From contig CAMBVX010000014.1 of NCBI GenBank assembly GCA_945871085.1, forward strand, positions 1-41,036: a stretch of 41,036 nucleotides of DNA. Reading direction: 5' to 3'. Position 1 is the stretch's first letter. Each line of letters starts with the position of its first letter. The notes under the pieces are model-generated. The model saw only the letters and a program-made list of their open reading frames with translations, was not told the origin of the DNA and made no database searches. The position numbers and the translations under genes are program-made. Source of the stretch: Opitutus sp. GAS368. Lineage in GTDB: Bacteria; Verrucomicrobiota; Verrucomicrobiia; Opitutales; Opitutaceae. Positions 3,883-31,849 of the stretch are shown in pieces.

Positions 3883-3928
3883 GCGGAGGAGCAGAACTAC
3901 TCCAGTAACGCAGCGGCGGACGAAAAGA

Positions 3929-3960
3929 CCTAGTCGCGACGGAAAGATTTTTTTCAGGGC
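3929..3960 (+). promoter_or_regulatory. Recurrent AT-rich motif (site 1, ahead of STN/receptor)
   Basis: Reads CCTAGTCGCGACGGAAAG followed by a run of seven T on the plus strand. It aligns with sites at 25366-25397 (plus), 26658-26690 (minus) and 5809-5840 (minus). The shared core is TAGTCGC, a 3-4 base gap, then GGAAA-AT-TTTT. It lies 47-78 bases ahead of the ATG at 3882. A sigma-dependent promoter or an operator is an inference. Confidence 0.4.
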
Positions 3961-3971
3961 GCGAAACGCGC

Positions 3972-4020
3972 GGGGGGGGGCAGATGGATCGCCACGTCGC
4001 TGCGCTCCTCGCGATGACAA
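3972..4020. repeat. G9 tract plus half copy of the dispersed palindromic repeat
   Basis: Nine consecutive G (3972-3980) are followed by 3986-4020, which is a single half-unit of the repeat family found elsewhere in the window. It reads GGATCGCCACGTCGC and ends CGCGATGACAA. The second half of the palindrome is missing here. Confidence 0.65.
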
Positions 4021-4120: not shown

Positions 4121-5161
4121 TCAGCGGGCGCGGCGGAGGTGGATTTCGGTTTCGCCGCGGCGCTCGCCGACGATTTCGCCGTCGCGTTCGAGGAGGCGCA
4201 CGAAGACCTCGGCCTCATCGAGGGCGAAGGTGCCGCCGATGCGGCGATCGGCGAGTGGTTCGTCGGCAATCAAAAGTTGGATACGGCTGCGGGCGTTGAA
4301 GCGGGCGATGACGTCGGCGAGCGGGGCTTCGGCGAAATCGGCGAGGCGGCTTTGCCAGGCGAGCGCGGCGCGGAGGGTGGCGGGATCGACTTGCTCGACG
4401 GTGGGAGGGGGGGCGTGGTGCGGGAGAACGATGCGCTGGCCAGCGGAGACGAGGGGCGCGGATTCGGCGGCGGAGGAGGCCGGGCCGGATTGGCCCACGC
4501 GGACTTTGCCCTCGGTGACGGTGACCTCGATGTCGCCGCCGGCGATGTAGCGGACGTTAAACGCAGTGCCGACGGCGCGGACGGCGATGCCGCCGGCGCT
4601 CACGATGAAGGGGCGCGCGGTGTCGTGGGCGACGGCGAAGTGAGCTTCGCCGGACTCGAGTTGCACGTGGCGTTCGGCGGCGGTGAACTGCACGCGCACG
4701 GCGCTGGCGGCGTTGAGTTCGAGCGTCGAGCCGTCGTCGAGGCGCGCGCGTTCGTAGCCGGCGACGGTGGTCGTGAAATGGATTTCGGGCGAAGGCTGCA
4801 GCGCGCGCCAGCCGACGAAAGAGCCGAGCGCGAGCGCGGCGGCGAGGCCGGCCCACGCGAGGGAGCGCGACCGGCTTCGGGGCGCCAGCGCTAGAGCGGG
4901 TTGTTCGGCGGTCGCCGGTGGAAACGCCACGACGGGAGCGGCGCGGTCGAAAGCGGTGTTGATGTCCATGCGAAACTCGGGGAGTTCGCCGAGGAGTCCG
5001 AGCGTTTGCTCCAGGCGGGCGACGGTGGCGGCATGGCGGGGATCGGTGCGGAGCCAGTGGGCAAATTCGCGCTCGCGGGCGGGCGAAAAACCGTCGTCGC
5101 GCGCGGTGAGCCACGCGATCGCGGCGTCTTCGATGGCGGCGGAGGAAGAATTGGTTTTCAC
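4121..5161 (-). CDS. FecR-family anti-sigma factor (full length)
   Basis: 346 residues with the whole FecR layout. A cytoplasmic N-terminal DUF4880-type domain (about 8-70, with the motif FAHWLRTDPRHAATVARLE) would bind the sigma factor. A Pro/Ala linker leads to one transmembrane helix near residues 103-118 (LAWAGLAAALALGSFVGW). The periplasmic FecR domain (about 125-230) contains the hallmarks SGEAHFAVAHDTARPF and VRAVGTAFNVR, and an STN-like C-terminal segment ends the protein. The start ATG overlaps the sigma stop (ATGA, 5161-5158), so translation is coupled. It would hold the sigma factor inactive until the receptor's STN domain signals that substrate is bound. This is the intact comparator for the truncated FecR at 25417-26031. 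Confidence 0.93.
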   Translation of the reverse strand: MKTNSSSAAIEDAAIAWLTARDDGFSPAREREFAHWLRTDPRHAATVARLEQTLGLLGELPEFRMDINTAFDRAAPVVAFPPATAEQPALALAPRSRSRSLAWAGLAAALALGSFVGWRALQPSPEIHFTTTVAGYERARLDDGSTLELNAASAVRVQFTAAERHVQLESGEAHFAVAHDTARPFIVSAGGIAVRAVGTAFNVRYIAGGDIEVTVTEGKVRVGQSGPASSAAESAPLVSAGQRIVLPHHAPPPTVEQVDPATLRAALAWQSRLADFAEAPLADVIARFNARSRIQLLIADEPLADRRIGGTFALDEAEVFVRLLERDGEIVGERRGETEIHLRRAR

Positions 5162-5718
5162 GAGGGCTCCTTCATTGCGGGTGCGGCGTCGACGAGGCCG
5201 CGGGCTTCGAAAAAGCGGGCGCAGTCGCGGACGCCCTTGAGTAAGTGGCCTTTCACGGTGCCGAGGGAAATATTGAGGCGGTCGGAGATTTCCTTGCCGG
5301 AGCAGCCGTCGAGGTAGCGGAGGAGCATCACCTCGCGGCAGCGTTCGGGGAGGGCGCGCATCGCCTCCGTGAGGGTTTCGCGGCGGTGGCGGCGCTCCAT
5401 GGTCTCGACGACGGTGGGTGGGGCGTCGAGGAGGGGGAGTTCGATGAGGTCCTCGTGGTCCGTGAGGGATTCGTGGGGGTGGACGTTGCGACGGCGGAAG
5501 AGGTCGATGGCGGCGTTGCGCGCGGTCGTGAAGAGAAAGGCTTTCGGGTGGGTGAGCCGGGCGGGGTCTGCGACGCGCAGGACGCGCACGTAGGTTTCCT
5601 GCACGAGGTCATCGTGGTCGGGGAGCGAAGGGAAGCGCTTCGAGAGATAGGCGCGGAGAGCAGGCTCGTGGGGTTGCACGTGCTCGGAAAACCAGCGGGC
5701 CTGTTCGGCGGAAGACAT
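5158..5718 (-). CDS. ECF RNA polymerase sigma factor, FecI-like
   Basis: 186 residues. Region 2 contains DDLVQETYVRVLR and FLFTTARNAAIDLFRR; region 4 contains LPERCREVMLLRYLDG and a helix-turn-helix ending in GTVKGHLLKGVRD. Length and motifs are those of FecI-like ECF sigma factors. A GGAGG lies about 11 bases upstream of the ATG, one of the few Shine-Dalgarno-like sequences seen in this window. Expected targets are its own operon and the receptor at 358-3882. It is a clear paralogue of the sigma factor at 26028-26576. Confidence 0.95.
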   Translation of the reverse strand: MSSAEQARWFSEHVQPHEPALRAYLSKRFPSLPDHDDLVQETYVRVLRVADPARLTHPKAFLFTTARNAAIDLFRRRNVHPHESLTDHEDLIELPLLDAPPTVVETMERRHRRETLTEAMRALPERCREVMLLRYLDGCSGKEISDRLNISLGTVKGHLLKGVRDCARFFEARGLVDAAPAMKEPS

Positions 5719-12027: not shown

Positions 12028-12032
12028 CAGGT

Positions 12033-13460: not shown

Positions 13461-13469
13461 GGGGAGAAG

Positions 13470-15989
13470 TTATTTTGAGCGGAACGTGGGGCTGAGGACG
13501 ACCTGTTCGAGGAGGTCGCGGAACGGGTAGTCGGCGGGTTTGGTGGCGGCGAGGATGGCGTCGATGGCGGGACGGTCGAGGGGCTCGACGCGGCGGCCGC
13601 AGGCGTAGGTGAGGAGACGCTCGGTGAGCATGCGCGCGAACTGGGGTTTGCGCTCGACCAGCACGCGTTTGAGGCCGGCGACATCGGCGAACCGGTGACC
13701 GCCGGGGAGTTCGCCGGAGGTGTCGATGGGCGCTTTTTTCTCGTAGGTTTCACGCCACGCACCGATGGGATCGAATTTCTCCAGCGCAAATCCCAAGGGG
13801 TCGATCTTCCGGTGGCATTCAAAACAGGACGGGTTGTCGCGGTGTTTGGTGAGAATTTCGCGCATGGATTTCGCGCCGCGGATATCGGGATCGATGGGCG
13901 GAACGTTGTCGGGCGGCGGGGCGGGCGGGGTGCCGAGAATGTTTTCGAGCAGCCAGACGCCGCGAATGACAGGCGAGGTTTCGATGCCGTTCGCACTGAC
14001 GGTGAGGACACTGGCCTGACCGAGCAGGCCGCCGCGCTGCGTGGGGTCGACGGGGATACGGCGGAATTCGTGGCCGGTGGCGCCGTCGATGGCGTTGGGC
14101 AGTCCGTAGAGCCGGGCGAGGGGGCGGTTGGCGAACGTGTAGTCGGCGTCGAGGAAACGGACGATGCTGGCGTTGCGGTCGAGGAGGTCGCGCGGGAAGA
14201 GCTGCGTCTCGCGCTTCATCGCGGATTGGAGATCCTCGGCGTAGTAACGCAGGAAGGTGCCGCGATCGGGTGCCATATCGCCGAGCGTGCGCAGATTGAG
14301 CCAGCTATCGAGGAGACCGTGGATGAAAGCGTCGGCGCGGGGGCTGGCGAGGAGGCGGCGGGTTTGCGCGAGGAGCACGTTGGGCTGAAGAAGTTCGCCG
14401 GTATTTGCACTGCGGGTGAGTTCGGGGTCGGGCGTGGTGGACCAGAGGAAATACGAGAGGCGTGCGGCGAGGGCGTGGGCGTTGAGCCTGCGATCAGCGG
14501 GGGCGGCGGATGCGGCGGACGAAGGTTCGGCGAGGTAGAGGAAAGCGGGGGAGCAGAGCACGGTTTTGAGGCCGTCCTTCAGAGCGTCAAAAGGTGTTTG
14601 GCCGGATTGCTGGCGGCGAGCGACCACGGCCAGGAGGCGGTCGACTTCGTCGGGGAGGACGGGGCGACGGTAGGCGCGCGTGGCGAAGGTGGTGAGGATC
14701 TCGCGCGTGCGGTCCGGCGTGAAAGGCTGGTCGCCCAGAATCGCGCGTTGACTGGCGGTGGGCCACGCGGGGTTGAGTGGACCGCGGATTTCGACCTCGT
14801 GAATGCGGATGTGCGGTGGGAAGCCGTGGCGTTGGACGACCTCACGGGCAACCACAATGCCGGTGGTATCGCGCAGCTCGGCGGGGAACGAGGAGTTGTA
14901 TTGGCGGAGAATGCGGTTCCACGTGGTGCGGATGCTGAGCGTGCCGTTCGGGAACGTGAAACGCGGCGTGAAACCGCGGTCGAGCCAGACGCGGAACGTG
15001 TGCCACTCGGCGACCTCGTCTTTGACGATCGTTTCGCCGAGTTGCGGTTCGATGGGCTGCGGTTGGTGGAGCGGGCCGACCTTGGCTTGACCGGCGACGA
15101 CGCCGAGACGGAACGGCATGGCGGGGTCGGTCCCAAAAATCTTTTGGTCGTAGGGATGCTGGCGATTCTTCGCCTCGGCCTTGACGCGAATTTCGTAGGT
15201 GCCGTCGGCGGGCACGCCTTGCGCGAAGGCGAGCAGCGGACCGTAGGCGCCCTCGTGTTGCGTGGATTGCGCCGACTCGTAGAGGCACATGTAGCGAAAA
15301 TTTTGGACCCGGCCGTGCGAGTAGCGGAGTTCGGGTTGCTGCTGGAAATTATCGGTGAAGCGCCAGGTGTGTTCGGCGGGCGGCTGGGGGGTGGAGAGGG
15401 CTTTCTCGACGATCTGGTCGGCGGCGTCGACGTATTGCGCGAGGAGGTAGCCGGAGGTTTTCAGGGCGTCGCCGATGTTGTCCATGTGTTGGACGGACTG
15501 GTCGCGGGGAAACTTCGTCGTCGGGTCGAACATCGCGAGGTTGAGCGCGAAGAGATCGCTGACGGTATTGAGATATTCGCGACGGTTCAGGCGGCGGAGG
15601 ACGGTTTGGCCGCCGGTGCTGGCGAGACGCGTTTGGGCGTCGGCGGCGAGTTGGGTGAGGTGGGCGACGACGGCGGCGACTTCGGCGGGCGCGGGGTGTT
15701 TTTTCGCTTTCTCCGGCGGCATCTCACCGAGGTTGAGCTGATCGATGATGTCTTGGATTTCGAGCAGGGTGTCGGCTTTGACGACGGGTAACGCGAGTTG
15801 GTCGAACCGACGCTCGGCCTTTTGTTTTTCGGGACCGTGACATTCGGCGCAATAGGTGCCGAGGAAAGTGCGAATCGCGGGCGTGGCGGTGTCTGGGGCC
15901 CCGCGCGTGGGTGGGACGCACGCGAGGGCGGAGAAAAGAGCGCCTGCAAGCAGGCGGCCTACCGGGGAACGGGCCGACGGACGAATCAT
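13470..15989 (-). CDS. DUF1592-family secreted c-type cytochrome (short form)
   Basis: 839 residues. After a signal peptide (about 1-31) comes a planctomycete-type cytochrome domain with heme motif C47-A-E-C-H and a later MPP that may supply the axial Met. The order is then the DUF1587-like segment (TVLRRLNRREYLNTVSDLF), a beta-rich carbohydrate-binding-like middle, DUF1595/DUF1592 (AYRRPVLPDEVDRLL, LSYFLWSTTPDPEL), DUF1588 with a second heme-type motif CFECH followed by RKIDPLGFALE, and DUF1585 at the end. The reaction is unknown; members are very numerous in Planctomycetota and Verrucomicrobiota and are nearly always paired with DUF1552 proteins. The start is one base after the DUF1552 stop. 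Two heme motifs point to an extracytoplasmic redox role. Confidence 0.93.
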   Translation of the reverse strand: MIRPSARSPVGRLLAGALFSALACVPPTRGAPDTATPAIRTFLGTYCAECHGPEKQKAERRFDQLALPVVKADTLLEIQDIIDQLNLGEMPPEKAKKHPAPAEVAAVVAHLTQLAADAQTRLASTGGQTVLRRLNRREYLNTVSDLFALNLAMFDPTTKFPRDQSVQHMDNIGDALKTSGYLLAQYVDAADQIVEKALSTPQPPAEHTWRFTDNFQQQPELRYSHGRVQNFRYMCLYESAQSTQHEGAYGPLLAFAQGVPADGTYEIRVKAEAKNRQHPYDQKIFGTDPAMPFRLGVVAGQAKVGPLHQPQPIEPQLGETIVKDEVAEWHTFRVWLDRGFTPRFTFPNGTLSIRTTWNRILRQYNSSFPAELRDTTGIVVAREVVQRHGFPPHIRIHEVEIRGPLNPAWPTASQRAILGDQPFTPDRTREILTTFATRAYRRPVLPDEVDRLLAVVARRQQSGQTPFDALKDGLKTVLCSPAFLYLAEPSSAASAAPADRRLNAHALAARLSYFLWSTTPDPELTRSANTGELLQPNVLLAQTRRLLASPRADAFIHGLLDSWLNLRTLGDMAPDRGTFLRYYAEDLQSAMKRETQLFPRDLLDRNASIVRFLDADYTFANRPLARLYGLPNAIDGATGHEFRRIPVDPTQRGGLLGQASVLTVSANGIETSPVIRGVWLLENILGTPPAPPPDNVPPIDPDIRGAKSMREILTKHRDNPSCFECHRKIDPLGFALEKFDPIGAWRETYEKKAPIDTSGELPGGHRFADVAGLKRVLVERKPQFARMLTERLLTYACGRRVEPLDRPAIDAILAATKPADYPFRDLLEQVVLSPTFRSK

Positions 15990-15990
15990 G

Positions 15991-17313
15991 TCAGGCGAGT
16001 TCGAGGCTGCGGAGAGTGCCGGTGCTGAGCGCGAAGCGATTCGTCTCCACGCCGAAGCGCTGCAGCAAGCTGAGGTAGAGATTCGAGAGCGGCACGCGGC
16101 CGGAGCCGGTGGTGGGATAGGCGCGGTGTTCGCCGTGTTTGAAGCCGCCGCCGGCGAGAATCATGGGGAGATTCGAGTTGGTGTGGGCGTTGGCGTTGCC
16201 CATGCCGCTGCCGAAAAGGACCATCGTGTGGTCGAGGAGACTGCCGTGGCCGTCTTCGAGCGATTTGAGTTTCGCGAGGAAGCGGGCGAATTGCTCCATC
16301 TGGTATTTTTCCAGCTTGAGGAGACCGTCGATATTTTCCTGCACTTGGCCGTGGTGGGAGAGCGCGTGATAATCTTTGCGGAGGCCGAGGGCGGAGGCTT
16401 CGAAACCGCCGGCGATTTCCAGCGTGGCGATGCGGGTTGAATCGGTCTGGAGCGCGAGGGCGATGAGGTCGTAAAGGACCGGGAGGTCGGAGACGAATCC
16501 CGTGTTCGCCGGCTCGGGCAGGCCGGCCGCGGGCTTCGGGACGTGGGCCCAACGTTTGCCGAGTTCCATCTGGCGTTCGACGTCGCGGACGGACGTGAAA
16601 TATTCGTCGAGTTTTTCGCGGTCACGGGTGTCGAGCTGGCGGGTGAGTGATTTCGCGTCGCCGTGGACGGCGTCGAGAATGGAGCCGTGGAGATGGAAGC
16701 GATCGGCGGAGCGGGCGACGTCCTGGGCCTTTTCGGTGCTGAACAGTTTTCGGAAGAGTTCTTTCGGACCGGGGATGGGCGGAACGCGGGTGCCGCTACG
16801 GGTCCAACACATTTGGCAACCGCCGTGCAGACCATCTTCGGAGCCGATGGTGAGGGCGGAGAAACGGGTGGCGCCGCCGATCGTTTCCGCGGCGCGTTGA
16901 TCGACGCTGATATTACCCTCGGGCATGGATTTGGCGTCCATGCTGCGGATGCCGCTGAGGTAGGAGTGAATGGCGAAGTGCCCACCCTTGAGTCCGTGAT
17001 CGAGCCCGGAGAAGAGCGAGAAATCGGGCCGATGCGGAGCGAGGGGTTGGAGGAGGGAGGGCAGCGCGAAATCGCGACCGGTGGCGGTGGGAAAGAATTC
17101 CGGTTGGTAGAACCCGAGCATGTTGCCGATGGCGACGAGGCGCTTCGGGCGGGTGGCACCGACGGCGGCTCCGGGTTTGCCCGCGACGGCGAGACCCGCG
17201 CCGAGCACGCGGGTCGAGAGTGATTCGAGCAGTGGGAGCGCGAGCGAAAGGCCGGCGGCGCGCAGGAAAAAGCGCCGGTTGATCAAACAAGGAGACGATT
17301 TTTTGTGATGCAT
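15991..17313 (-). CDS. DUF1552 twin-arginine-exported protein
   Basis: 440 residues. The N-terminus carries a Tat-like signal (INRRFFLRAAGLSLALPLLES). The body has the DUF1552 signatures RPKRLVAIGNMLGFY, DHGLKGGHFAIHSYLSG, EYFTSVRDVERQM, DSTRIATLE and the histidine-rich YHALSHHGQ. These recall the alkaline-phosphatase/sulfatase-like fold of the related DUF1501 proteins. Family function is unknown; Tat export suggests folding or cofactor loading before export. It sits directly between a sulfatase (15-base gap) and its DUF1592 partner (1-base gap). The partner order is opposite to that of the second pair at 27138-31849. Confidence 0.92.
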   Translation of the reverse strand: MHHKKSSPCLINRRFFLRAAGLSLALPLLESLSTRVLGAGLAVAGKPGAAVGATRPKRLVAIGNMLGFYQPEFFPTATGRDFALPSLLQPLAPHRPDFSLFSGLDHGLKGGHFAIHSYLSGIRSMDAKSMPEGNISVDQRAAETIGGATRFSALTIGSEDGLHGGCQMCWTRSGTRVPPIPGPKELFRKLFSTEKAQDVARSADRFHLHGSILDAVHGDAKSLTRQLDTRDREKLDEYFTSVRDVERQMELGKRWAHVPKPAAGLPEPANTGFVSDLPVLYDLIALALQTDSTRIATLEIAGGFEASALGLRKDYHALSHHGQVQENIDGLLKLEKYQMEQFARFLAKLKSLEDGHGSLLDHTMVLFGSGMGNANAHTNSNLPMILAGGGFKHGEHRAYPTTGSGRVPLSNLYLSLLQRFGVETNRFALSTGTLRSLELA

Positions 17314-17328
17314 GGGGATGGGTGAAGT

Positions 17329-18840
17329 TCAGCGTTGAGGGGTGGGTAGTGGCTTTCCGCGTGGTCGCGCCGGTTCCGCGCCGCTGGTGACCCGGGGCGA
17401 AGGATAGTGATCGAACAGGTCGCCTTGGCCCAGCGTGCGCGGGTCCTGCTGGCGTTTCAGTTCGGCCGTGAGTTGACCGCGCAAGGCGGCGGCTTTTGTG
17501 GCGAAGGAGGGATTGGTGGCGAGGTTGACCACGCAGTCAGGATCGGTGCTGAGGTCGAATAACTGTTCGGCGGGGCGTTTGCCGTAGGCGTGTTGCCAGA
17601 ACGGATCCGCCTCGCCGCGCGCGGTCACGAGCGTCTTGGACGGACTCGCGTCGGTGTCTTTCAGGCCGAGCTCAGGGTTGCCGCAGGGCCACCGGTCGGG
17701 CGCGAAATTTTGCACGTAGAAGAACGAGCCCGAACGGATGGCGCGCGCGGGATAACCGAGGCCGGCGAAGGAACCGGGACGTGCCAACACGTCGTTACGC
17801 TCGCGTCCGACGAGCACAAATTCGCGGCTGACTTGGGCCGCGCCGCCCAACAAATCGGTGAAGCTACGGCCGGTAATCGGTGCCATGCCTTGCGCGGTGC
17901 CGTTGACGCCGAACACTTCCAGCAAGGTCGGCGCCAGATCGATGAAGCTGATGAGGTCGGCGACCCGGCGACCCGGTTGAGCGACCCGCCCAGGCCACGA
18001 AACGATGAAGGGAATATGGTGCGCGTCGTCATACGTGTGCCCTTTGACGCGGGGAAACGGCATGCCGTGGTCCGACGTGACGATGATCAAAGTGTTTTTG
18101 GTTTCATCGCTCTCCTCGAGTGCGGCGAGTAGCGCTCCGATCTGCGCGTCGTAGGCTTCGACCTCGACCGCATAGTCCAGCATGTCGCGGCGCACGACGT
18201 CGTTGTCGGGCCAATACGCGGGCACGCGGTCGATGTCGGTGGGTTTCTTGCCGGCGGCGAGACCGGAGTCCGGCGGGTAGCCTCGATGGGGATACTTACT
18301 CCCGAACCAATAGAAAAACGGCTGGCCGGGGGTGCGGGTGTTGAGAAAAGCCCGGAGAGCGCCGCCCGGATCCCGGTCGTTGACTGAGCCATTGCCGCGC
18401 AGGGCAAAATTTCGCGGGGTGCCGTCGGCGTGTTTCGCCTCGCCGGGCCCCCAGGTTTTGCCGGCGGAACCGCAGGCGATGCCCGCTTGGGCCAACGCTT
18501 CGCTGAAGGCCATGAACTTCGCCGGAAAACGGGGCTGATGATTCGCGGCTTCTTCCAACTGCCAGGGATTACGGCCGGTGAGGATGGCGGCGCGGGACGG
18601 GGCGCACTTCGACGTCGGGGTATAGGCGTGGTCAAAGACGAGACCGTGTTTCGCCAGACGATCAATGTTCGGCGTCTTCACCCAGGTGCAGCCATACGCT
18701 TCGCCGAAGTGGCGCGACGCATCATCGGCGATAATGAAAAGGACATTGGGCCGCGCCGCCGTCGCCGCCCGCAGGGAAAGCGTGGCCGCCACAGCAAGGA
18801 ACAGGGCAAACGGGATGCTGAGAGCGAGTCGGGTGATCAT
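17329..18840 (-). CDS. Exported sulfatase, heparan N-sulfatase-like
   Basis: 503 residues. Signal peptide 1-29. Metal motif FIIADDASRHFGEAYG, formylglycine site C79-A-P-S-R followed by AAILTGRNPWQLEEAANH, then FYWFGSKYPHRGY and IVTSDHGMPFPR. The CAPSR-LTGRNPWQLE pattern is typical of the sulfamidase (N-sulphoglucosamine sulphohydrolase) group of S1 sulfatases in marine and soil Verrucomicrobiota and Planctomycetota. The C-terminus is a proline-rich tail. It is preceded by a 192-base gap after the PhoD-like gene and followed closely by DUF1552, so an internal promoter ahead of it is possible. The substrate preference is inferred by family only. Confidence 0.92.
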   Translation of the reverse strand: MITRLALSIPFALFLAVAATLSLRAATAARPNVLFIIADDASRHFGEAYGCTWVKTPNIDRLAKHGLVFDHAYTPTSKCAPSRAAILTGRNPWQLEEAANHQPRFPAKFMAFSEALAQAGIACGSAGKTWGPGEAKHADGTPRNFALRGNGSVNDRDPGGALRAFLNTRTPGQPFFYWFGSKYPHRGYPPDSGLAAGKKPTDIDRVPAYWPDNDVVRRDMLDYAVEVEAYDAQIGALLAALEESDETKNTLIIVTSDHGMPFPRVKGHTYDDAHHIPFIVSWPGRVAQPGRRVADLISFIDLAPTLLEVFGVNGTAQGMAPITGRSFTDLLGGAAQVSREFVLVGRERNDVLARPGSFAGLGYPARAIRSGSFFYVQNFAPDRWPCGNPELGLKDTDASPSKTLVTARGEADPFWQHAYGKRPAEQLFDLSTDPDCVVNLATNPSFATKAAALRGQLTAELKRQQDPRTLGQGDLFDHYPSPRVTSGAEPARPRGKPLPTPQR

Positions 18841-21502: not shown

Positions 21503-24500
21503 CTATAGGTCGGTTTCGTAGGAGAAGATAAACTGGCGTGGGATCAATCTGACTGTGGTCAGTGAATTTCCGTTAAGGAAATCGCGGTTCCGGGTGTCGT
21601 AGCGACCCGGCGGGAAGGCGTTTCGGATATTCACGCCCAGACTATACCGCCGGTTGCCGAGCCAGGCCGATTTTCCGTTATAGCCGAAGGAGAAATCAAC
21701 GGCGGTTTCCGCCTTACCCTTTTGGATGATGCTTACGTCCGGCACGGCCACGCCATTGATCCGCTTCACGCCGAAGCCGATGGCCGCCGGTGCGCGCCAG
21801 CGATAGCCGACACCCACGCGCGAGCCCCGCAGGGCGCCTTCGCTGAACCGATACATGGCATTCAAATTCAGGCGATTGTCGCGGGTGAACTCATTCGGAC
21901 GTCCGTTATAGGCCTCCAAGACGGGAATGCCCGAGTTCCCATTGCGGACATTGGAGATCCAGTTCTCCCGCATGGTTTGGCCAGTCCATCCGCCCGGAAA
22001 GAGGTCGTCATTGCGGCCCCACGGTGTGTTATTGGCTCCGATGTTTTGGGGAACGGTTTGCCCGGCGCCGCTGCCGATCGGAATCGCGTTCCACGTATAT
22101 TTCCGGATGACACCGTCTCCATCCATGTCGAAACCCGCCGGATTTCGGTAAATGGCCTCGGTATCTCCAGGCACGTAACCTTCGGTGAACAGAGTTTTGT
22201 CCATGATCTTTTCAAACTCGTCGGCGAACTTGATCCACTGGGTGGCGATTTTGGTTTGGACGACTTGTTGGTGATTCCACGTGAGGCGAATATCCAGATT
22301 TCTGGTGGGTTTCCACTGCGCCGTGATTTCGCGGCCCTTCGCGGCGCTGTCGGCGCTGACGGCGTAGGGATCCAGATAATTGAAGAAATTCATCGTCTCG
22401 AATCCGCCGTTGTTCACCGAGGCAAAGGGGTAGGCCAACTTGGGATCGCCTTGGTCTTGCAGCGGCCAGACGGGGAACTTCGCCCTGAAATCCGCTTCGT
22501 TGACGACCATGGCGCGCGTGATGTCTTTCATCACGCCCCGCATGGCCGCCCGGATTCCAGCGAAGAGCGCCCCGAGTCTGGTCGGTGACGAGGACACCTC
22601 ATACTCATTAAATTTAAGGTTGAAGCTGCCATGGAACAGACCGAGGCGAATGCCTTGGTCAGTCCCATCGCCCTTCTCGCTCGCGAGAAAGGACCCATCG
22701 GGGTTTCGCGCCGTCGTATTCGGGGCAAACGTGTTCGACTGGGTGAACATGAACGAGAGATCGGCTCCCAGGGGAAGCTTCCAGCCCCAGTCCCGGAACG
22801 GGTGAACGACCATGCCCTTGAGCGTCGTCGTCCCGACCGCTTCGGTGGCCGGATCCATCTGTTCGAAACCATAGTGGTCGATGTGCGCCTGATAACCGGC
22901 GGACGCTGCCGAGATGATCTGGCCTGTTTCAGGATTCCGCCAGAGCACGGCCGGGGCTTGGGACCGGGCCGTGTTGTTCGAGTCTTCGCGGCGACCGTAA
23001 GTCAGCACGATCCGGTCCTCCAGCAGGTAGCCTTGATAGGAGAAGAGCTTGGTGCCGAATTTCGTGTGCGTTCCGCCTGTATTGCGACCCGTGATGAGGC
23101 GCTCGCCGTTGGTTCCGGTGCCCGCATTCATCGGATCAACGACCCAAGCCTCGCCGCTGTTGTCCTTGATCGTCCACGGTTTCCCAATCTCAAAACCGTC
23201 GACCCTCGGCACCCAGCCCAAGTCTGCGCCGACGTAAGAGCGGAAATTGACCACGCGGTTGCTGGAGGTCGCGGTGTAGCCGTTGCCCAACGGCCCGAGT
23301 CCGCGGCGTCCGTCAGTTTCGAGGGTGTAGTTCACCCCGCTAAACACCGGGTCGCGCATTTTGCCGTTCTGGATCACCGGCTGAATGTTGTAGCGGTATT
23401 CCTGGTTCAGGTTTTTCGAGACGATCCCGGAGACGATGCCGGCGAGGCGATGCCGTCCCAGCAACCGGATGAATCGATTGCGGGAACGCTCCTTCAAATC
23501 GAGTTCATAGGAGAGCGCGGCACGCCATTCGTCGCTTTTCGCCCACCCCTGATCGAACCCGGCTAATCCATCGAAATAGAGTTTTCCGGCGTAGGGATTC
23601 GGTGTGACGCCATCGGGAAGAAACCGGTTGGCATCGACGTTGAGATTGAGGCCGCCGTTGCCGCCGGCCATGTAACTCGCGCCGGAGTTTTTGTTCGATT
23701 CCCGCTGAACTCCGGCCTCGAAATGGAGGCCCTTGAGGATCTCCTGATTGAAAAAAAGATTTACGATCGAAGACTTCCGATCGCTGAAATCGGTGAAATA
23801 GTGGTAGCTGGCATCGCGAGGATAATAGTCGTCGTTCAGCAGGGATACACCCCGCGTGGTGCCCGCGTTGACCGGGTCAACGATCCCCGGCCAGCGCCCG
23901 TTGTCGGCGATGTTTTGCACGCCCACCGAATAGAATGAGCCCATCGCCCGCAGTCCGGCCGGATTGTTTCCGCCGATCACACTAATCGCGCCATCGCCCG
24001 ACGTGCTGAAAACCCGGTCGTCCGGGTTACTCTTCCCCGTCTGCCAGGCCGCATTGTTGTTGAAGAGAGGCTTGTTGCCGACCGCCGAGCCCAAATCACC
24101 GGCTTGATACCAGACACGAACTTTATCCAGCGGAGGAACCCGCGAAGGTGTCCGACTATGCCCTTTCGCGTATTCGTAGTGCGCACTGATCGAGGTCTTT
24201 TTGAAGGGAGTGTAGACGAGCGCACCATAGGCGCGGCGTTCCCGGTCGATCGAGGGGTTCGGCTGAAATTTTTTGTTGTCGGCGAGGAGCGCTCCACGGA
24301 AAGCCAATTGGTTTTTGAGCAGAGTCTGATTCAGGTGCAACTCGCCGCGGGTGCCGCCAAAGCTATCGAACTGCGTCTTCAATTGGCGGGTGTTCCGATT
24401 CATGATCGGACGGGCCAAGGTCGAATCAATGGCTCCGGTCGGAGCGCCAATCCCGAACATCATCGGGTTCGGACCGGAAGCGAGGGTGACGCGCTCCAGA

Positions 24501-24928
24501 TTGTAATTGTCCGACCGCGTGTCGGTGGCGAAAAACTCCCGGGTCCGGCGGGCTTGGCCGATGCCGCGCACGCGCAGGGTGCCCTCGCCGCCGCCCTTCG
24601 ACTCCACGTTGCTCACAAACTCGTTGCTGTTCTCGATATTGAGCGAGTAGACGGAGGCGGCATCGATGCTGGTGAAGCCGAAGTCTTCCATAAAATCCAA
24701 GGTGAACACATCGATCTGCGACGCGACGTCAGAGAGTTTCGTTTTGAAGCGAGTGCCCGCCAAAGTTTCAGTCGGCGCCCAACCCTGGTTGTCGCCGGCA
24801 TTCACTTGGAAGGGAGAAAGAACGATGGCTTCGTCCTTGGGTGGGTGGGCCACGGTTTGCGCCGTAGTGCCGGTGCCGAGGGCGAACCAGCCGACGAGGG
24901 CGGCGAGCAGGGTGAGGGAAGTTTTCAT
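21503..24928 (-). CDS. TonB-dependent receptor of the sulfatase array
   Basis: 1141 residues. Signal peptide 1-24 (KTSLTLLAALVGWFALGTG), then the DEAIVLSPFQVN box. The plug has GEGTLRVRGIGQARRTREFF and LERVTLASGPNPMMFGIGAP, and the long barrel ends IPRQFIFSYETDL. It is longer than the receptor at 6319 because of extended extracellular loops. The start overlaps the STN gene stop (ATGA, 24928-24925), so the two are co-translated. This suggests that the STN protein acts as the missing signalling domain in trans. Base composition is visibly lower in GC than the flanking sigma/FecR/STN genes. A 103-base gap separates it from the PhoD-like gene. It probably imports the desulfated product or binds the intact substrate. 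Confidence 0.93.
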   Translation of the reverse strand: MKTSLTLLAALVGWFALGTGTTAQTVAHPPKDEAIVLSPFQVNAGDNQGWAPTETLAGTRFKTKLSDVASQIDVFTLDFMEDFGFTSIDAASVYSLNIENSNEFVSNVESKGGGEGTLRVRGIGQARRTREFFATDTRSDNYNLERVTLASGPNPMMFGIGAPTGAIDSTLARPIMNRNTRQLKTQFDSFGGTRGELHLNQTLLKNQLAFRGALLADNKKFQPNPSIDRERRAYGALVYTPFKKTSISAHYEYAKGHSRTPSRVPPLDKVRVWYQAGDLGSAVGNKPLFNNNAAWQTGKSNPDDRVFSTSGDGAISVIGGNNPAGLRAMGSFYSVGVQNIADNGRWPGIVDPVNAGTTRGVSLLNDDYYPRDASYHYFTDFSDRKSSIVNLFFNQEILKGLHFEAGVQRESNKNSGASYMAGGNGGLNLNVDANRFLPDGVTPNPYAGKLYFDGLAGFDQGWAKSDEWRAALSYELDLKERSRNRFIRLLGRHRLAGIVSGIVSKNLNQEYRYNIQPVIQNGKMRDPVFSGVNYTLETDGRRGLGPLGNGYTATSSNRVVNFRSYVGADLGWVPRVDGFEIGKPWTIKDNSGEAWVVDPMNAGTGTNGERLITGRNTGGTHTKFGTKLFSYQGYLLEDRIVLTYGRREDSNNTARSQAPAVLWRNPETGQIISAASAGYQAHIDHYGFEQMDPATEAVGTTTLKGMVVHPFRDWGWKLPLGADLSFMFTQSNTFAPNTTARNPDGSFLASEKGDGTDQGIRLGLFHGSFNLKFNEYEVSSSPTRLGALFAGIRAAMRGVMKDITRAMVVNEADFRAKFPVWPLQDQGDPKLAYPFASVNNGGFETMNFFNYLDPYAVSADSAAKGREITAQWKPTRNLDIRLTWNHQQVVQTKIATQWIKFADEFEKIMDKTLFTEGYVPGDTEAIYRNPAGFDMDGDGVIRKYTWNAIPIGSGAGQTVPQNIGANNTPWGRNDDLFPGGWTGQTMRENWISNVRNGNSGIPVLEAYNGRPNEFTRDNRLNLNAMYRFSEGALRGSRVGVGYRWRAPAAIGFGVKRINGVAVPDVSIIQKGKAETAVDFSFGYNGKSAWLGNRRYSLGVNIRNAFPPGRYDTRNRDFLNGNSLTTVRLIPRQFIFSYETDL

Positions 24929-25377
24929 GGATTTAGAGTTTGGTTGCGCGTTGGAAGCGGGTCCGTCCTCACCGCCGCGCGGTACGGCTTCGGGGTGCGC
25001 TTCCCGCTGACGACAAGGGCTCCGGTGGCGTTGTCCTGCGCGGCCTCGAGGCCCGTGCCGACGCGCATCCCGTTCGAGCGCCTCGCGGGGCGGAACTCGC
25101 CGTGCACGGGGTTGGTCGTCTCGCCGCTCACTTTGTCGGCCACAAACACGAGCGAGCGGCCAGCGGCGGCGGCGAACTGCCGCAGCGTCGTCGGGGCCTC
25201 ACCGTGAGGGAGGTCGAAGCTCCGCTTCGCCTCCGCCGCCGCCACGCGCAAAGGCGCGACCGACCCGCGTGCGCTGCACGAGGCGAGTACGACGAGGGCA
25301 GCGGAAAACGACGGGGTGAGACGGAGCAGAGCCACTAACCCAGTTGCGCGGAAGCGGAGGAGTCTGTTTAGTCGCAA
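24925..25377 (-). CDS. Stand-alone STN-domain protein (signal transducer)
   Basis: 150 residues if the TTG at 25377 is used; a GTG at 25335 is an equally good start. A signal-peptide-like N-terminus (FSAALVVLASCSARG) is followed by one STN domain (about 52-125: RSFDLPHGEAPTTLRQFAAAAGRSLVFVADKV, ending GALVVSGKR in two stretches). The domain is clearly homologous to the N-terminal part of the receptor at 358-3882, where it is fused in frame. Part of it is degenerate: the usual RDALDRML stretch reads RRSNGMRV here. It overlaps the receptor start by four bases. Role inferred: a periplasmic signalling module relaying receptor occupancy to FecR. Confidence 0.75.
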   Translation of the reverse strand: MRLNRLLRFRATGLVALLRLTPSFSAALVVLASCSARGSVAPLRVAAAEAKRSFDLPHGEAPTTLRQFAAAAGRSLVFVADKVSGETTNPVHGEFRPARRSNGMRVGTGLEAAQDNATGALVVSGKRTPKPYRAAVRTDPLPTRNQTLNP

Positions 25378-25416: not shown

Positions 25417-26031
25417 TCACCGGCCGCCGGTCGTCCACGGTGCCTGCAACCGCGCGGTGTCGCCGTCGCGTTCGGCGCGGATTATGCCGTCACGTTCGAG
25501 CAGGCTCACAAATACCTCAACGTCATCCAGGGCGAACATCCCGCTGATCCGCCGCGCTCCGCGGGCAGGGTCGGCCGCGACGAGTTGGAGCGCGTGGTGG
25601 CGGCTGAAGCGCGCGGCGATCTCGGCGAGCGGCGTGTCGGAAAAATCCGGGACACGTTGCTGCCACGCGAGGGCGGTGCGCACGTCGGCGGGGGCAAGTC
25701 GCTCGACGCCGGGCCCAGCTGCGGCGGTGGGGGTGAGCGGAATCGCGAGGCGTTGGTTCGCGGCGATCAAGGTGGCGACGTTGTTGGATAGCGCCGGTCC
25801 GACCGCCACTTTACCTTCCGTCACCGTGCCCTCGACGGCGCCGGAGACGAAGCGAACATTGCAGGCCGTGCCTACCGCGCGCACGGTCACGCCGCCCGCG
25901 CTGACCACGAAGGGCCGCGCGGGGTTGTGCGCGACCTCAAAGGGCGCCTCGCCGGACTCGGCGAGCCGCGCGATGGCCTTCGCTGCGATGGCCACGGCAC
26001 CGGGCGTTTCCGGTTCCTCGGACGGCTTCAT
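25417..26031 (-). CDS. Truncated FecR: periplasmic part only
   Basis: 204 residues against 346 for the intact paralogue at 4121-5161. The ATG overlaps the sigma stop (ATGA, 26031-26028), so the start is certain. After about 27 residues (KPSEEPETPGAVAIAAKAI) the sequence goes straight into the FecR domain: SGEAPFEVAHNPARPFVVSAG, VRAVGTACNVR, VTEGKVAVG. It then runs through the C-terminal STN-like segment that aligns to the end of the paralogue. The DUF4880 sigma-binding domain and the transmembrane helix are both absent, and no signal peptide is visible, so the product would stay in the cytoplasm. It may be non-functional, or may act differently from known FecR proteins. The frame is intact and codon use matches its neighbours. 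Confidence 0.85.
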   Translation of the reverse strand: MKPSEEPETPGAVAIAAKAIARLAESGEAPFEVAHNPARPFVVSAGGVTVRAVGTACNVRFVSGAVEGTVTEGKVAVGPALSNNVATLIAANQRLAIPLTPTAAAGPGVERLAPADVRTALAWQQRVPDFSDTPLAEIAARFSRHHALQLVAADPARGARRISGMFALDDVEVFVSLLERDGIIRAERDGDTARLQAPWTTGGR

Positions 26032-26576
26032 GATTCGCCTTTCGCCAGTGCGGTGGAATCGAGAAAACCCCGCTCGCGGAAAAACTGCGCGAAGTTGCGC
26101 ACCCCTTTCATTAAGTGGACGCGCACCGTGGCGGCCGCGAGGCCGAGGTGCACCGCGATTTCCCGGCCGGAGAATCCATCCACGTAGCGGAGCAGCATGA
26201 CTTCGCGGCGACGCTCCGGCAGCGTCCCCAGCGCGGTGAGCATCGTCTCGTGTCGCTGCGCGTGGTCGATCGCGTCCGCCGCGCCCGGCGCCGGTTCGAG
26301 CAAGGCGATCTCGGCGATGTCGTCGAGGGAATCGACGGGCGTGCGGCGCGTGCGGCGGACGTGGTCGATCGCGATGTTGCGCGCGGTGGTGAAGAGAAAG
26401 GCCCGCGCGTGCACCAAACGCTGCGGATCGGCGCCGCGCAGCAGGCGCACGGAGGTCTCCTGCACGAGGTCGTCGTCGGGCAGGCTGGAAAACCGCCGCG
26501 AGAGAAACACGCGCAGCGCCGCCTCGTGCGGTCGCACGCTCTCGGTAAACCAAATGGCCTGATCAGGGGGTGACAT
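26028..26576 (-). CDS. ECF RNA polymerase sigma factor, FecI-like (second copy)
   Basis: 182 residues. Region 2: DDLVQETSVRLLRGAD and FLFTTARNIAIDHVRR. Region 4: LPERRREVMLLRYVDGFSGR and a helix-turn-helix ending AATVRVHLMKGVRNF. It is closely related to the sigma factor at 5158-5718 along its whole length, including the N-terminal stretch around WF-E-V-PHE-ALR. It is the first gene of the long array running to 10441. Its FecR partner lacks the sigma-binding domain, so this factor may be free of its usual inhibition. There is no Shine-Dalgarno sequence before the ATG. Confidence 0.94.
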   Translation of the reverse strand: MSPPDQAIWFTESVRPHEAALRVFLSRRFSSLPDDDLVQETSVRLLRGADPQRLVHARAFLFTTARNIAIDHVRRTRRTPVDSLDDIAEIALLEPAPGAADAIDHAQRHETMLTALGTLPERRREVMLLRYVDGFSGREIAVHLGLAAATVRVHLMKGVRNFAQFFRERGFLDSTALAKGES

Positions 26577-27137: not shown

Positions 27138-28490
27138 TTACAAGTCGGCCAGCCGCGTCCTGGCGTCGCCGAAGTGGTCGAGTTTTACGCCCATGCGATC
27201 CATCAGCGAGAGATGCAGGCTGCAGACTTTGCGGTGGTCATCGCCGGCCTCGCGATAGTCGAGGATGCGGCCGGTCTTCAACGAGCCGCCGCCTTTGCCC
27301 GCGAGGACGATCGGCAGTTGGCCGGCGCTGTGGGCGTCACCGTCGAAGAGGCTCGAGGCATACATCAGGATCGAGTTGTCGAGGAGCGTGGTGTCGCCCT
27401 CCTTGATGGCCTTCATGCGTTGGACGAGGTAGGCAAACTGCGCGGCGTGAAATTGGTTCGTCTTGAGATACATCGCCTCTTTGTCGACGGCCTTGCCGTT
27501 GTGCGTGAGGTCGAGGTGCAACGCGCCCTTTACGCCTGCGAGGAACTTGAAGTTCATCTGCGAAAGATCGTTGTTGAGCATCAGGGTGGCGATGCGGCTC
27601 TTGTCCATTTGGAACGCGAGCACCGTCAGATCGAGCATGAGTTTCATGTGATCGGGGACGTGTTGCGGGAGCTCGTTTTTCGGGCGGGGCAGGTCGGGCT
27701 GGGCGAGGGTGGGGCGCCAGCCTTCGAGCCGCTCAGCCTTCGCCGCGCGCTCGATGCGGCGCTCGATGTCGCGGATGGATTCGAGATATTCCTCCAGCTT
27801 GACGCTGTCGGCGCGGCTGATCTTGGGCTTGAGGCTGTGCGAGTCCTGCCGCACTTCGTCGAGAATGCTGCGGTCGAGTTTGCGGCCGGTGCCATCGCCG
27901 ATGAGTCGGTCGAACGCGCGGGACGGATAAATTTCTTTGGTCGCGGGTTTGGTCGGGGAAGCCCACGACAAACTCGACCCGTAAATCATCGAGAGGCCAT
28001 CCTCGAGGCGCAGTTCGTTGGGTTCGATGCCGAGCACGAGACTCGGGACGGCTGTGCGGCCGCCGAGGTGCGCGGCGAGCACCTGATCCATCGTCGTGCC
28101 GACGCGGATCACGCCGGGGTCGAGGCTGACGGGCGCGCCCGAGAGCAGGTTCATGCGGCCGAGGTGCGGACTGGTGGAGGCGAGGGCCGCCTGGCTGTAG
28201 AGCCCTTGGACGAACACGAGGTCCTCGCGATGCGGCAGCAAGGGCGCGGCGGCGGGCCCGAGTTCCATGGTGGCGCCGGCGCCCTTGGCCCACCAGTGAA
28301 TCGGCTCCACGCCGTTCGAGAAAAAGACGATGCCGAGGCGCAGCGGTGGCGTGGTGGGCTTGGCGCTGGCGGTCACGGTCTGCCCGAATGCGGTGAGCGA
28401 TTCCATCCACGGTAAGGCGAGTGCGACGCCCGCGCCGCGCAGGAAATGGCGACGGGTAAGCTGAGGGGAGTTGGGGTGAGTGGGGTTCAT
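27138..28490 (-). CDS. DUF1552 twin-arginine-exported protein (second copy)
   Basis: 450 residues with a Tat-type start ([20 protein letters not shown]). Family signatures are [45 protein letters not shown] and [13 protein letters not shown]-like C-terminal segments (seen as [15 protein letters not shown]). It differs from the copy at 15991-17313 mainly at the N-terminal third and in the metal-site-like loops. It starts 2 bases after its DUF1592 partner, so here the order is cytochrome first, DUF1552 second, the reverse of the other pair. Function is unknown; the pair presumably works as one extracytoplasmic unit. Confidence 0.92.
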
Positions 28491-28492
28491 GC

Positions 28493-31400
28493 TTATTGGG
28501 AGCCGGGCGGGGCATCGTCGCGGCCCTGATGATGGCGGAACTGGCGGCTGGCGACAATTTTGGTCGCGAGATCGGCAAACGTGGCCTGGCCCCCCGCGGC
28601 GGTGAGCTCGTCGATGAGCGCGCGGTCGGAGCCGAGGACGGTGCGGCCGAGGGCGTAGCCGAGCATTTTTCGCGAGAGGGTTTTGGTGACCTGCGCGTCC
28701 TTGGACTTCAGATACTCCAAGAGGCCGGCGGCGCCGGCGATCGTGGACTTATCGGGAAACTCGCCGGTCGTGTCCACGGCGAGACCGTCGTCATAGTTCG
28801 AGCGGGTGCGGCCGACGGCGTCGAAACCTTCGAGCGGGAAACCCAGCGGATCGATGCGGAGGTGACAGCTGGCGCAGGCGGGGTCGCGTTTGTGCTCGTT
28901 GAGTTTTTCGCGCAGCGACTGGCCGCCGAAGGACTGGGGGTCGCCGGGCAAAGTGCCTGCGTCGGCCGGTGGTGGTGGCGTGGGTGTGCCCAGGATACGG
29001 CGCAGCAGCCAGTCGCCCCGCTTCACCGGGCTCGTGCGCAGCGGGGCGGAGGTGGTCGTCAACACCGCGCCGAGCCGCAGTGCGCCGCCACGGTTGAAGG
29101 CGGGTGCGCCCGTGACCAGCTCGACGGCGTCCGGCGATTTTACCTCGCGTGCAATCCCGTAAAATTTGGCGAGCGGCTGGTTGAGAAACGTGTAGTCGGC
29201 GTGGAGCAGTTCGCGCAAGGGCCGCTGCTGCCGCACGAGATACTCGAAGGTCGCGACGGCCTCGTCATACATGGCCGATTTTACTTCGTCGGTAAACTCG
29301 GGGAACCGGCTGGTATCGACGCCGCGAAATTCGTCGAAGCGGTAGAACCCGAGCCACTGGCCGAAAAATTCCGTCGCGAGGCGGCGCGCTTTGGGATCGA
29401 CGGTCATGCGCTTCACTTGACCCGCCAGCAGCGCGGGCGTGGCCAGCTCGCCGGCGGCGGCGGCGCGGCGCAACTCGTCGTCGGGGATCGAGGACCAGAG
29501 GAAGAAACTCAAGCGGCTCGCGAGCTCCCAGTCGTTGAGCGGGCGTTCGACCGGGGTCGGGGCGGTCTCTACGCGATAGAGGAAGGCCGGCGATACGAGG
29601 ATGCGGGCGAGCACCGCGCGGATTGCATCGTCGTGCTCCAGCTGGGTGGCGCGGGAGCGTTGGTAGAAGTCTCTCAGGCGCGTTTTTTCCTCGGAAGTCA
29701 GCGGACGGCGCCAGGCCCGGCTCGCGAAGGCGAGCACCTCCTCGACGTGGCTGGGTTGGGCGGACGCCAGCGCTTTCATCACCTCGGTGTGATGCGCGCG
29801 CAGGGCCACCACGTGCGCTTGGGCGTCGGCTGGCAGTGCCGCGATTTGTTCTTCGCCCAGATCCTGCAATTTGCGGCTCGTCGACTTCACGTCGTAGTGA
29901 TCGACCAACATTCCGAGATAGGCGTCGTGATAGGGCCACGCGCCAAAGAGGTCGTGCCACGCGTGGTTGAGCCGCACGCGGTCGGTGCCGTCGACGAGGT
30001 TGGCGGTGAAGAACGCGTCGGTCCGCTGATACTTTACCTTCATCACGAACGCGTCGTGCTCGGGGCTATTGTAGGTGTTGTCGAACGGCGCGGGCACCGG
30101 GTCTTTGTCGGCGGGGTTGGCCTCGCCGTGGGAGTTGGGTGGCAGTAGCGAAACATATTCCGCGAGGCCGGCGCGCCACGTGCGGTAGCCGGCGCTCGCG
30201 GTGTCGCCGAGAAAGACGCGGGCCCGCGCGCCGCGCGCCGGTACGGCCTCGGTGTCGGCCACCACCACGCGCACGACTGCGTGGCGATCCGCGCCGAGCT
30301 CGGCGTCGACTTGCAGTTCGGCCGTGGTACCGGTGGCGGCAGCGGGCAGTTCGAAGGACACCGTGGCCGGTGTCGCGAAATCGTCCGGGCCGAGCGGCGT
30401 GCCGTCGGGGCTCGTGCCAAACGCGAGACGCGCGACGACGTCGGCCGGTAGCGCGGAACGGAGAGACTGGGTGGAGAGAATCGGGCCCGAGGGGCTACGA
30501 CCGCGAGCGGCGCCCGCGGCAACGACGGTCGTCTCGGCCGCAGCGGGATCGGAGGCGGCCGCACCCGGTGTGCTCCGGCCGCGGCCGGCGGACGCGCTGC
30601 GAGTGATCACCCGGGGATTTCGCCAGATCACGACGGGGCGCGCGCTGGCGAGCGGGTTGATGTTGGCGACATTCAGAACCACCTTGATTGGTGCGGTGGA
30701 TGCCGGGGCCGCGGGGCCGCGACCGCCGCGACCGAAGCGGAAGCCCAGGGGATAAGTGTAGGGGTGGGTCGCCTCGACGGCCAAGGCTTGGTCGTCAAAC
30801 ATCAGCGGACTCTCGTCACCTGCGCCGCCGGCCGCAGCGTCGCCGCGACCGAAGAACCAGCTCGGCCACGTCGTGAGATTTTTTTGGAGATCGTCGCACC
30901 CGGCGCGCGCCTGCGTGATCGCAGCTGGAATGCTGGACGGCGAGGTGGGTGTGGGCAGAGCCTGCCAGCGCGCGACGGTGTCCCGGCTGGGATAGCCGAG
31001 GGCAGGCTGTTTGACGACCGACCACACGTGTTCAGCGAACCGCCCGGTGATGCCTTCCCTCGCGGCGAGATCGCGCAGCGTCACCTGGGGTTCGCCCAAG
31101 GCCACACGATGCTGAAAAAACCACGCGACGAAAAACGCCTGGCTATAGCGCTCGAGCCCATACGGCAGCCCGCCCTCACCGGAGACGACGCGAAAACCGT
31201 GGGCCGCGTAGAGGGCGTTGATGCGGTGGAGGGCGGAGAGCTCCAGCCCGGTGCGGCCGGGGTCGGAAAAAAACTGCAGCGGTCCCGCGCCGATGATCGC
31301 GTGCGCGGCGACCTGTTTGGCGGCTTCGAGGTAGCGCTCGACGCTGGCGTCCTGCATGAATTGCACATCGCCGAAATTGGTAAAGCCCTCGCCGCCGACC

Positions 31401-31849
31401 GAGTCGGCCGAGGAGTCGAGGCCGACCTTGAGGTCGAGGCCGGTCAGGTCGCGAATCGCGTAGGCATATTCGCCGCTCGTCAAGCGGCGCACGGTCACAC
31501 GGCCGGGCTCGCCGGCATGTGCGCGGGCGTAGGTGTGCAGCGTGGTGCGGAGCGCGGCGGCTGCGGCCGTGCGCTCGAGCTCGGTCGGAATCGCCTTCGC
31601 GTCGGCCGGTGGCATCTCGGCCGTCTCCAGCATCGCGACGACCTTGTCCCAATCATCCGCGTGCGGCCCGACCGAGGCCTGGGCCAGAAGGCGTGCGAGG
31701 TTGAGGCCGGCCTTGGGTTTGGTTTCACCGTGGCATTCGACGCAGTAGGTTCTGAAAAACTCCGCTGATTTCGCCGGCGATTGCCCGGACGAGAGCGCGG
31801 CGGAGCCGAAACTCAAGCAGACGGCGAGGGTGGGGTGGAGGCGTTTCAT
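28493..31849 (-). CDS. DUF1592-family secreted c-type cytochrome (long form)
   Basis: 1118 residues, about 280 longer than the copy at 13470. Signal peptide 1-22, heme motif C36-V-E-C-H near the start, MPP at about 80, then the DUF1587-like [20 protein letters not shown]. The central region (roughly 330-580) is enlarged and includes Gly/Ala/Arg/Pro-rich low-complexity stretches (such as [15 protein letters not shown]). DUF1595/1592 follows ([32 protein letters not shown]), then DUF1588 with a second motif CASCH followed by [14 protein letters not shown], and DUF1585 at the end. It is a probable extracytoplasmic redox protein. It is grouped with an acetylesterase-like gene upstream (63-base gap) and a DUF1552 gene downstream. 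Confidence 0.93.

Follow-up and report, generated by a model that had tools for sequence, protein, structure and literature searches.

The sigma factor gene, FecR remnant and STN reading frame ahead of a TonB-dependent receptor in Opitutus sp. GAS368 are likely, on the sequence comparisons given below, a degenerating cassette that is joined to a receptor carrying no such cassette in most of its relatives. The stretch analysed (the window, 41,036 nucleotides) is the whole of contig C14 in a draft genome of 7.37 Mb in 630 contigs that is 95.8% complete (G000), and its features are collected in Table 1. According to the history that we propose, the cassette probably joined the receptor gene by recombination within its first ~40 codons. 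A single in-frame deletion has taken from the FecR its anti-sigma domain, its membrane helix and half of the FecR domain. What is left would stay in the cytoplasm, out of contact with both the sigma factor and the receptor; signalling would be lost, the receptor would be expressed without it, and the sigma gene would be drifting, its product either inactive or active without control. Because the core of the switch is lost while the receptor stays well preserved, the arrangement looks like an add-on switch that is being lost and not like a new kind of signalling, unusual as a state but ordinary as an event. Against decay stand the open reading frame of the remnant and the predicted good folding of its C-terminal part, and the decay reading rests on one metagenome-assembled genome (MAG).

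Table 1. Features of the sigma-FecR-STN-receptor unit in the window and of the intact paralogous unit
Feature	Position	Strand	Remarks
Sigma factor of intact paralogous unit	5158..5718	(-)	Pfam
Intact FecR paralogue P0002	4121..5161	(-)	DUF4880 and FecR 4-97 by Pfam; comparator in the original prediction
TonB-dependent receptor	21503..24928	(-)	1141 aa; body conserved, purifying selection
STN signalling-domain ORF	24925..25377	(-)	TTG start; -1/+1 compensated indels, further -1 ends ORF at receptor start
FecR remnant ORF	25417-26031	(-)	204 aa; ATGA overlap with sigma ORF 26028-26576
Retained FecR C-terminal part	25417..25956	(-)	half FecR domain with Gly-Thr motif, STN-like end, 6-residue tail
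Deletion joint	25956..25960	(-)	441-453 nt absent relative to five relatives
FecR stub	25957..26031	(-)	first 25 residues of anti-sigma domain, with W22R (codon 25966-25968)
ECF sigma factor gene	26028..26576	(-)	182 aa; Pfam Sigma70_r2 and r4_2 above cut-off

Like FecI-FecR-FecA of E. coli and the corresponding signalling of Pseudomonas, the unit comprises a sigma factor, a FecR (with a Gly-Thr motif and an STN-like C-terminal domain) and a TonB receptor with an STN domain, and it places an ECF sigma factor beside a regulator gene, as cell-surface signalling does. It differs from those systems in that its FecR is without the sigma-binding domain and the helix, and in that its STN domain is frameshifted off the receptor. 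In Pfam searches the remnant matched the FecR profile at positions 46-96 of 97 (30.9 bits), FecR_C below threshold (19.3 bits against a cut-off of 24.4), and DUF4880, the N-terminal sigma-binding domain, not at all; the NCBIfam FecR profile was matched at 149-294, likewise below its cut-off. Alignment with five close relatives shows 147-151 aa (441-453 nt) to be missing in frame, a loss that takes in the anti-sigma domain, the linker, the membrane helix and the first half of the periplasmic FecR domain, which is thus incomplete. Hydropathy agrees: the highest 19-residue value in the remnant is 1.29 and lies inside the FecR domain, as compared with 1.49-2.05 at residues 97-105 in 13 other FecRs, so that no single membrane helix is recognizable. 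The original prediction, that this FecR had lost its anti-sigma domain and helix and had kept its overlap with the sigma gene, is thereby confirmed; it was also right that the loss is in frame, but its figure of about 140 aa (420 nt) was slightly low.

The retained part is in better order. AlphaFold2 models residues 1-22 of the remnant with pLDDT below 50, then the strands of half a FecR domain, and is confident about the C-terminal part (block means of 91-96 over residues 131-200). The best Foldseek match is the signalling domain of PupR (6ovk; E 3.1e-11, TM 0.46), which supports an STN-like C-terminal signalling domain in spite of the sub-threshold FecR_C and NCBIfam scores. The Gly-Thr that is the predicted self-cleavage site (G198-T199 in P0002 numbering) is also kept.

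Conservation was read from a set of 46 FecRs (47 collected from hand-chosen candidates of 290-460 aa only, minus L018 and L132, omitted because their starts are doubtful, plus P0002). The Gly-Thr columns are constant in 46/46, as are four further sites that the remnant has changed or lost: W17, which is R22 in the stub; W36, which falls in the deleted part; and F201 and N289, replaced in the retained part by C57 and S143, respectively. The stub accordingly reads AIARLAE where eight relatives have AMAWLAE and one has SLAWLAE, and behind the joint the window has SGEAPFEVAHN as against SGEAHFEVAHD in the five relatives compared. The stop codon common to the relatives is gone as well, which adds six residues. 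In one alignment (A1) R22 of the stub falls in a column listed as invariant, which we read as R22 having been set on a C-side arginine; we rejected that placement because the last 15 stub bases before the joint are identical at 14 positions to the N-side of the FecR at G000:C591, a paralogue in the same host. The FecR deletion, W22R, the lost stop and the frameshifts in STN (below) are all disabling lesions that are absent from the relatives, as befits a pseudogene.

How the deletion arose can be narrowed down at its ends. In six of nine relatives the two sides have CGAG in common; the shared stretch shrinks to GAG in G006:C50 and is lacking in C591 and G087:C336, and across the 14 bases around the joint 7-9 are similar in eight relatives. 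The earlier proposal of a clean in-frame deletion between SGEA-coding homologies therefore holds for the clean deletion and fails for the homologies: SGEA, said to be frequent in the N-terminal domain of FecR proteins, is absent from residues 1-80 of all 46 FecRs (16 have it beyond residue 120), and because an N-side SGEA is thus missing and the joint sides have at most 4 nt in common, homologous deletion at SGEA was rejected. We infer a fairly recent, illegitimate event, by microhomology or slippage.

The deletion is peculiar to the window. Relatives of the FecR were sought in nine genomes of the genus and 252 of the family, and none of the ten closest, at 70-75% identity to the remnant (G005:C330, G005:C286, G006:C50, G008:C142, G000:C591, G000:C534, G084:C475, G089:C113, G078:C13 and G087:C336), has it. 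Eight of these FecRs are complete, with lengths of 347-362 aa; of the other two, G087:C336 lacks its 3' end (323 aa could be read) and G000:C534 lacks its 5' end but still has the helix. The intact sigma-FecR-STN cassettes of Opitutaceae MAGs (G000:C591, G005:C330, G005:C286, G006:C50, G008:C142, G078:C13, G084:C475 and G089:C113) belong to the same cassette family as that of the window, their FecRs having 69-75% identity with the remnant where the two overlap; they differ in keeping the N-terminal half of FecR and, apart from G089:C113, whose contig ends, in having STN and receptor in one frame. Within the host genome, which has 28 FecR matches, no match but the remnant begins as late as profile position 46; the one on C111 comes closest, with a start at 39. 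A separate gene for the missing half, which had been named as an observation that would overturn the deletion, was not found in this draft of 630 contigs and 95.8% completeness: all 17 DUF4880 matches (150 of 252 candidates scored) sit at FecR loci, and with the missing half of a relative as query all 17 matches (75 of 75 scored) again fell on known FecR loci.

Frame has been lost on the receptor side too. The STN reading frame, which matches NCBIfam FecA at positions 17-96 below the cut-off, has suffered a one-base loss, a one-base gain and another one-base loss that occur in the window only among seven aligned sequences (the window and six relatives), and it stops at the ATGA of the receptor, so that the unit has no receptor with an in-frame N-terminal STN domain. 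The two are in frame in 8/8 cassette relatives that could be read and in the other unit of the window, the contigs of G089:C113 and G087:C336 ending too early. A missing upstream start of STN was considered as a further lesion and dropped, since the start codon is at the same place in C591, where it reads ATG, and in the window, where it reads TTG. In all eight readable cassette relatives and in the intact unit of the window, where STN is continuous with the receptor, a second signal-peptide-like segment with a start codon (ATG; GTG in L161) opens the receptor behind it (L105, L106, L107, L108, L109, L110, L160, L161 and window 358-4020), and it is conceivable that such a dual start yields signalling and non-signalling forms of the receptor. 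Three units discussed below (G224, G225 and G232) are without this segment.

The receptor itself is well preserved, with orthologues in the genus at 93% (G005:C118) and 87% (G007:C94) amino acid identity and an omega of 0.054 on the window branch for its body (three taxa). Resemblance to G005 and G007 at the DNA level sets in at 24814, within the receptor gene, and the similarity of the window to other cassettes trails off where the receptor starts; the N-terminus of the receptor is probably derived from the cassette. Besides the window, the family has 17 matches to the receptor at E <= 1e-150, and the upstream region could be read for 16 of them, the remaining one (G085) being a fragment at a contig end. 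Seven relatives with receptors of 73-93% identity (G005, G007, G087, G078, G079, G067 and G086) have no candidate sigma, FecR or STN gene in the upstream stretch read, which is short in G067 (964 bases) and G086 (about 2.1 kb); in G007 there is a lone weak sigma match (26%) about 7 kb from the receptor. G224, G225 and G232, with receptors at 85-86% amino acid identity, possess a full cassette of a different type, whose sigma factor is about 42% and whose FecR about 40% identical to those of C591; these units resemble that of the window in receptor and in type of control unit, with STN fused straight to the receptor there. More distant orthologues (G188, two copies in G189, G129 and G014) have no cassette, and in G128 a sigma-FecR pair lies on the opposite strand, pointing away.

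Orthologues thus differ in what lies upstream, the receptor having been without a cassette, coupled to one type or coupled to another. The converse is seen in the cassette family of the window: measured against G008:C142, its FecRs have 72-91% identity, and the receptors behind it are 26-37% identical pairwise (alignments of more than 100 residues). In a search for bare receptors behind other cassettes, the receptor of G006:C50 had no match at E <= 1e-120 beyond its own genome among the nine genomes of the genus, and the best matches to that of G008:C142 are at 62-64%, so that the pattern is documented in detail for a single receptor. Recombination of the cassette onto different receptors would be the simplest reading of these comparisons. 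Tentatively, we suggest that the sigma-FecR-STN block is quite possibly a plug-in module that recombination sets whole in front of unrelated TonB-dependent receptors within Opitutaceae, with homology ending at the receptor start and with the same receptor, the one that we followed in detail, occurring bare, with one cassette type or, in the window, with another that is being lost. If this is true, receptor wiring turns over much faster than receptor identity. A receptor found in all three states suggests that control of nutrient receptors by signalling is gained and lost as a module.

The sigma gene is complete. Its product is one residue shorter than the 183 aa of the nine cassette relatives read, and is 77-81% identical to those of five cassettes in the genus (77% for G000:C591). 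In comparisons of ten proteins the window departs alone from all the others at 8 sites in sigma and 10 in FecR; C591 comes next, with 4 and 5. In a two-rate codon model fitted with our own script, omega of sigma on the window branch was raised to 0.584 against 0.118 with 10 taxa (2dlnL 11.73; omega = 1 costs 0.72), to 0.475 against 0.149 with 6 taxa (2dlnL 5.99; omega = 1 costs 1.68) and to 0.404 against 0.141 with 14 taxa (2dlnL 6.36; omega = 1 costs 3.27), three overlapping sets that are not independent tests. The point estimate is below 1 in all fits. Five other terminal branches gave 0.084-0.177 as controls (6 taxa) and C591 gave 0.159 (14 taxa), and the elevation fits a loss of function in the sigma factor.

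For the retained part of FecR, omega on the window branch (0.128, 0.130 and 0.125) was not different from background and was below that of C591 (0.248 and 0.200), which implies that the part was constrained over most of the history of the remnant and that decay is recent or partial. G000:C534 was in no fit, and the 13-taxon FecR fit was made without G087:C336 and without the 6-residue tail of the window. The fitted length of the window branch is 0.43 for sigma (14 taxa) and 2.07 for FecR (13 taxa), so the two genes may differ in history, as by gene conversion between paralogues, and this weakens the omega test. The 5' half of sigma (26327-26566) is 87-92% identical to the cassettes of G005, G006 and G008 and 78-83% to C591, unlike the FecR part; gene conversion between cassettes is a possible source of this pattern.

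What the loss of the domain would do to the sigma factor depends on whether FecR inhibits or activates. In the excerpted text of one source (PMC9249621), residues 9-59 of E. coli FecR bind FecI and convert it to an active sigma factor, fragments 1-38 and 19-85 do not bind it, the W19R mutant is induction-negative, and several N-terminal fragments of at least 59 residues are constitutive; by motif similarity, W22R of the stub would lie at the position of W19. The equivalent of the lost domain in E. coli being also an activator, the sigma factor of the window could equally be inactive. An excerpt on Leptospira (PMC13118517) has the N-terminal domain inhibiting and the whole protein needed for full activation. 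Loss of the domain can therefore free a sigma factor or switch it off, a choice that sequence cannot decide. That the sigma factor is intact and constitutive, freed of its anti-sigma domain, with the receptor and the gene array always on and this state selected, is unlikely in our estimation: the reading frame is complete with regions 2 and 4_2 above cut-off, and complete hydrolysis of FpvR in Pseudomonas gives active FpvI (PMC9249621, excerpt), but the raised omega, the lost residue and the 8 sole deviations speak against it, as does the need of FecI for FecR residues 9-59. We give slightly less weight still to control in trans, exerted by FecR from a paralogous host cassette (C591 or C534), which would make the local FecR dispensable. 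C591 does have an intact FecR beside its similar sigma factor, and FpvR is reported as one anti-sigma factor for two sigma factors, FpvI and PvdS (PMC4256889, excerpt); against this, omega of the sigma gene is raised, and the link from STN to receptor is broken too.

An assembly or consensus error, by which the missing bases and the STN indels would be unreal, is improbable. The genome is a draft in 630 contigs, which would favour such an error, but the at most 4 exact nt shared by the joint sides in nine relatives are far below an assembler k-mer, the deletion is exactly in frame, the adjoining 3.4-kb receptor frame is open throughout, and the substitutions at conserved sites and the raised omega of sigma are independent of any indel. 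It had also been suggested that a soluble FecR might work without its membrane segment, and this we regard as very improbable. The open frame, the translational overlap, the Gly-Thr, the PupR-like predicted fold and the low omega would all suit a working soluble signalling protein; against it count the absence of a helix by hydropathy, the loss of the sigma-binding region and of half the FecR domain, the changes at F201 and N289, the STN domain frameshifted off the receptor, and the restriction of the deletion to the window among its close relatives. Having no helix, the remnant would remain in the cytoplasm and be separated from the STN domain: judging by the model, it could fold but would sit in the wrong compartment. 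A cassette in decay is thus the reading that we retain, and its interest is also practical: a natural deletion of the sigma-binding domain of FecR beside an open sigma gene, with intact relatives at hand, makes the question of activator or inhibitor directly testable. In the literature we found no paper joining Opitut-, FecR and sigma factor, none, by titles and abstract openings, on a FecR pseudogene with a TonB-dependent receptor and a sigma factor, and none, among the entries listed, on a FecR lacking its cytoplasmic domain or transmembrane part with an ECF sigma factor.

Degenerate FecRs occur elsewhere in the genus (L019, L043, L059, L063 and L064), marked by in-frame stops, by what is probably a frameshift, or by the absence of the 5' half; the copy in the window differs from them in staying open and in keeping its overlap with the sigma gene. 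Screening 104 FecR loci (109 examined) for the helix passed 84 and flagged 20, namely nine without an anchor motif (including L064), six near the threshold, one at a contig edge and four that look degenerate. We claim no rate of FecR decay, because six loci were chosen partly for their short open frames and some sites were counted twice. In-frame stops or a probable frameshift mark L019, L059 and L064. At L043 (G001:C88:8727-12266) the FecR has an internal stop, and the preceding ORF, which we take to resemble a REP-associated (RAYT/Y1) transposase, runs up to the FecR remnant. L063 (G002:C202:1000-4500) is another loss of the 5' half: a FecR domain that lacks both the helix and the N-terminal half follows immediately on an ORF that is presumably sulfatase-like. 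In the window, three sulfatase ORFs and two pairs of DUF1552 (HXXSHH) and DUF1587/1588/1592/1595 genes flank the receptor (10441-18840 and 27138-31849), an arrangement that is partly rearranged in G007:C94.
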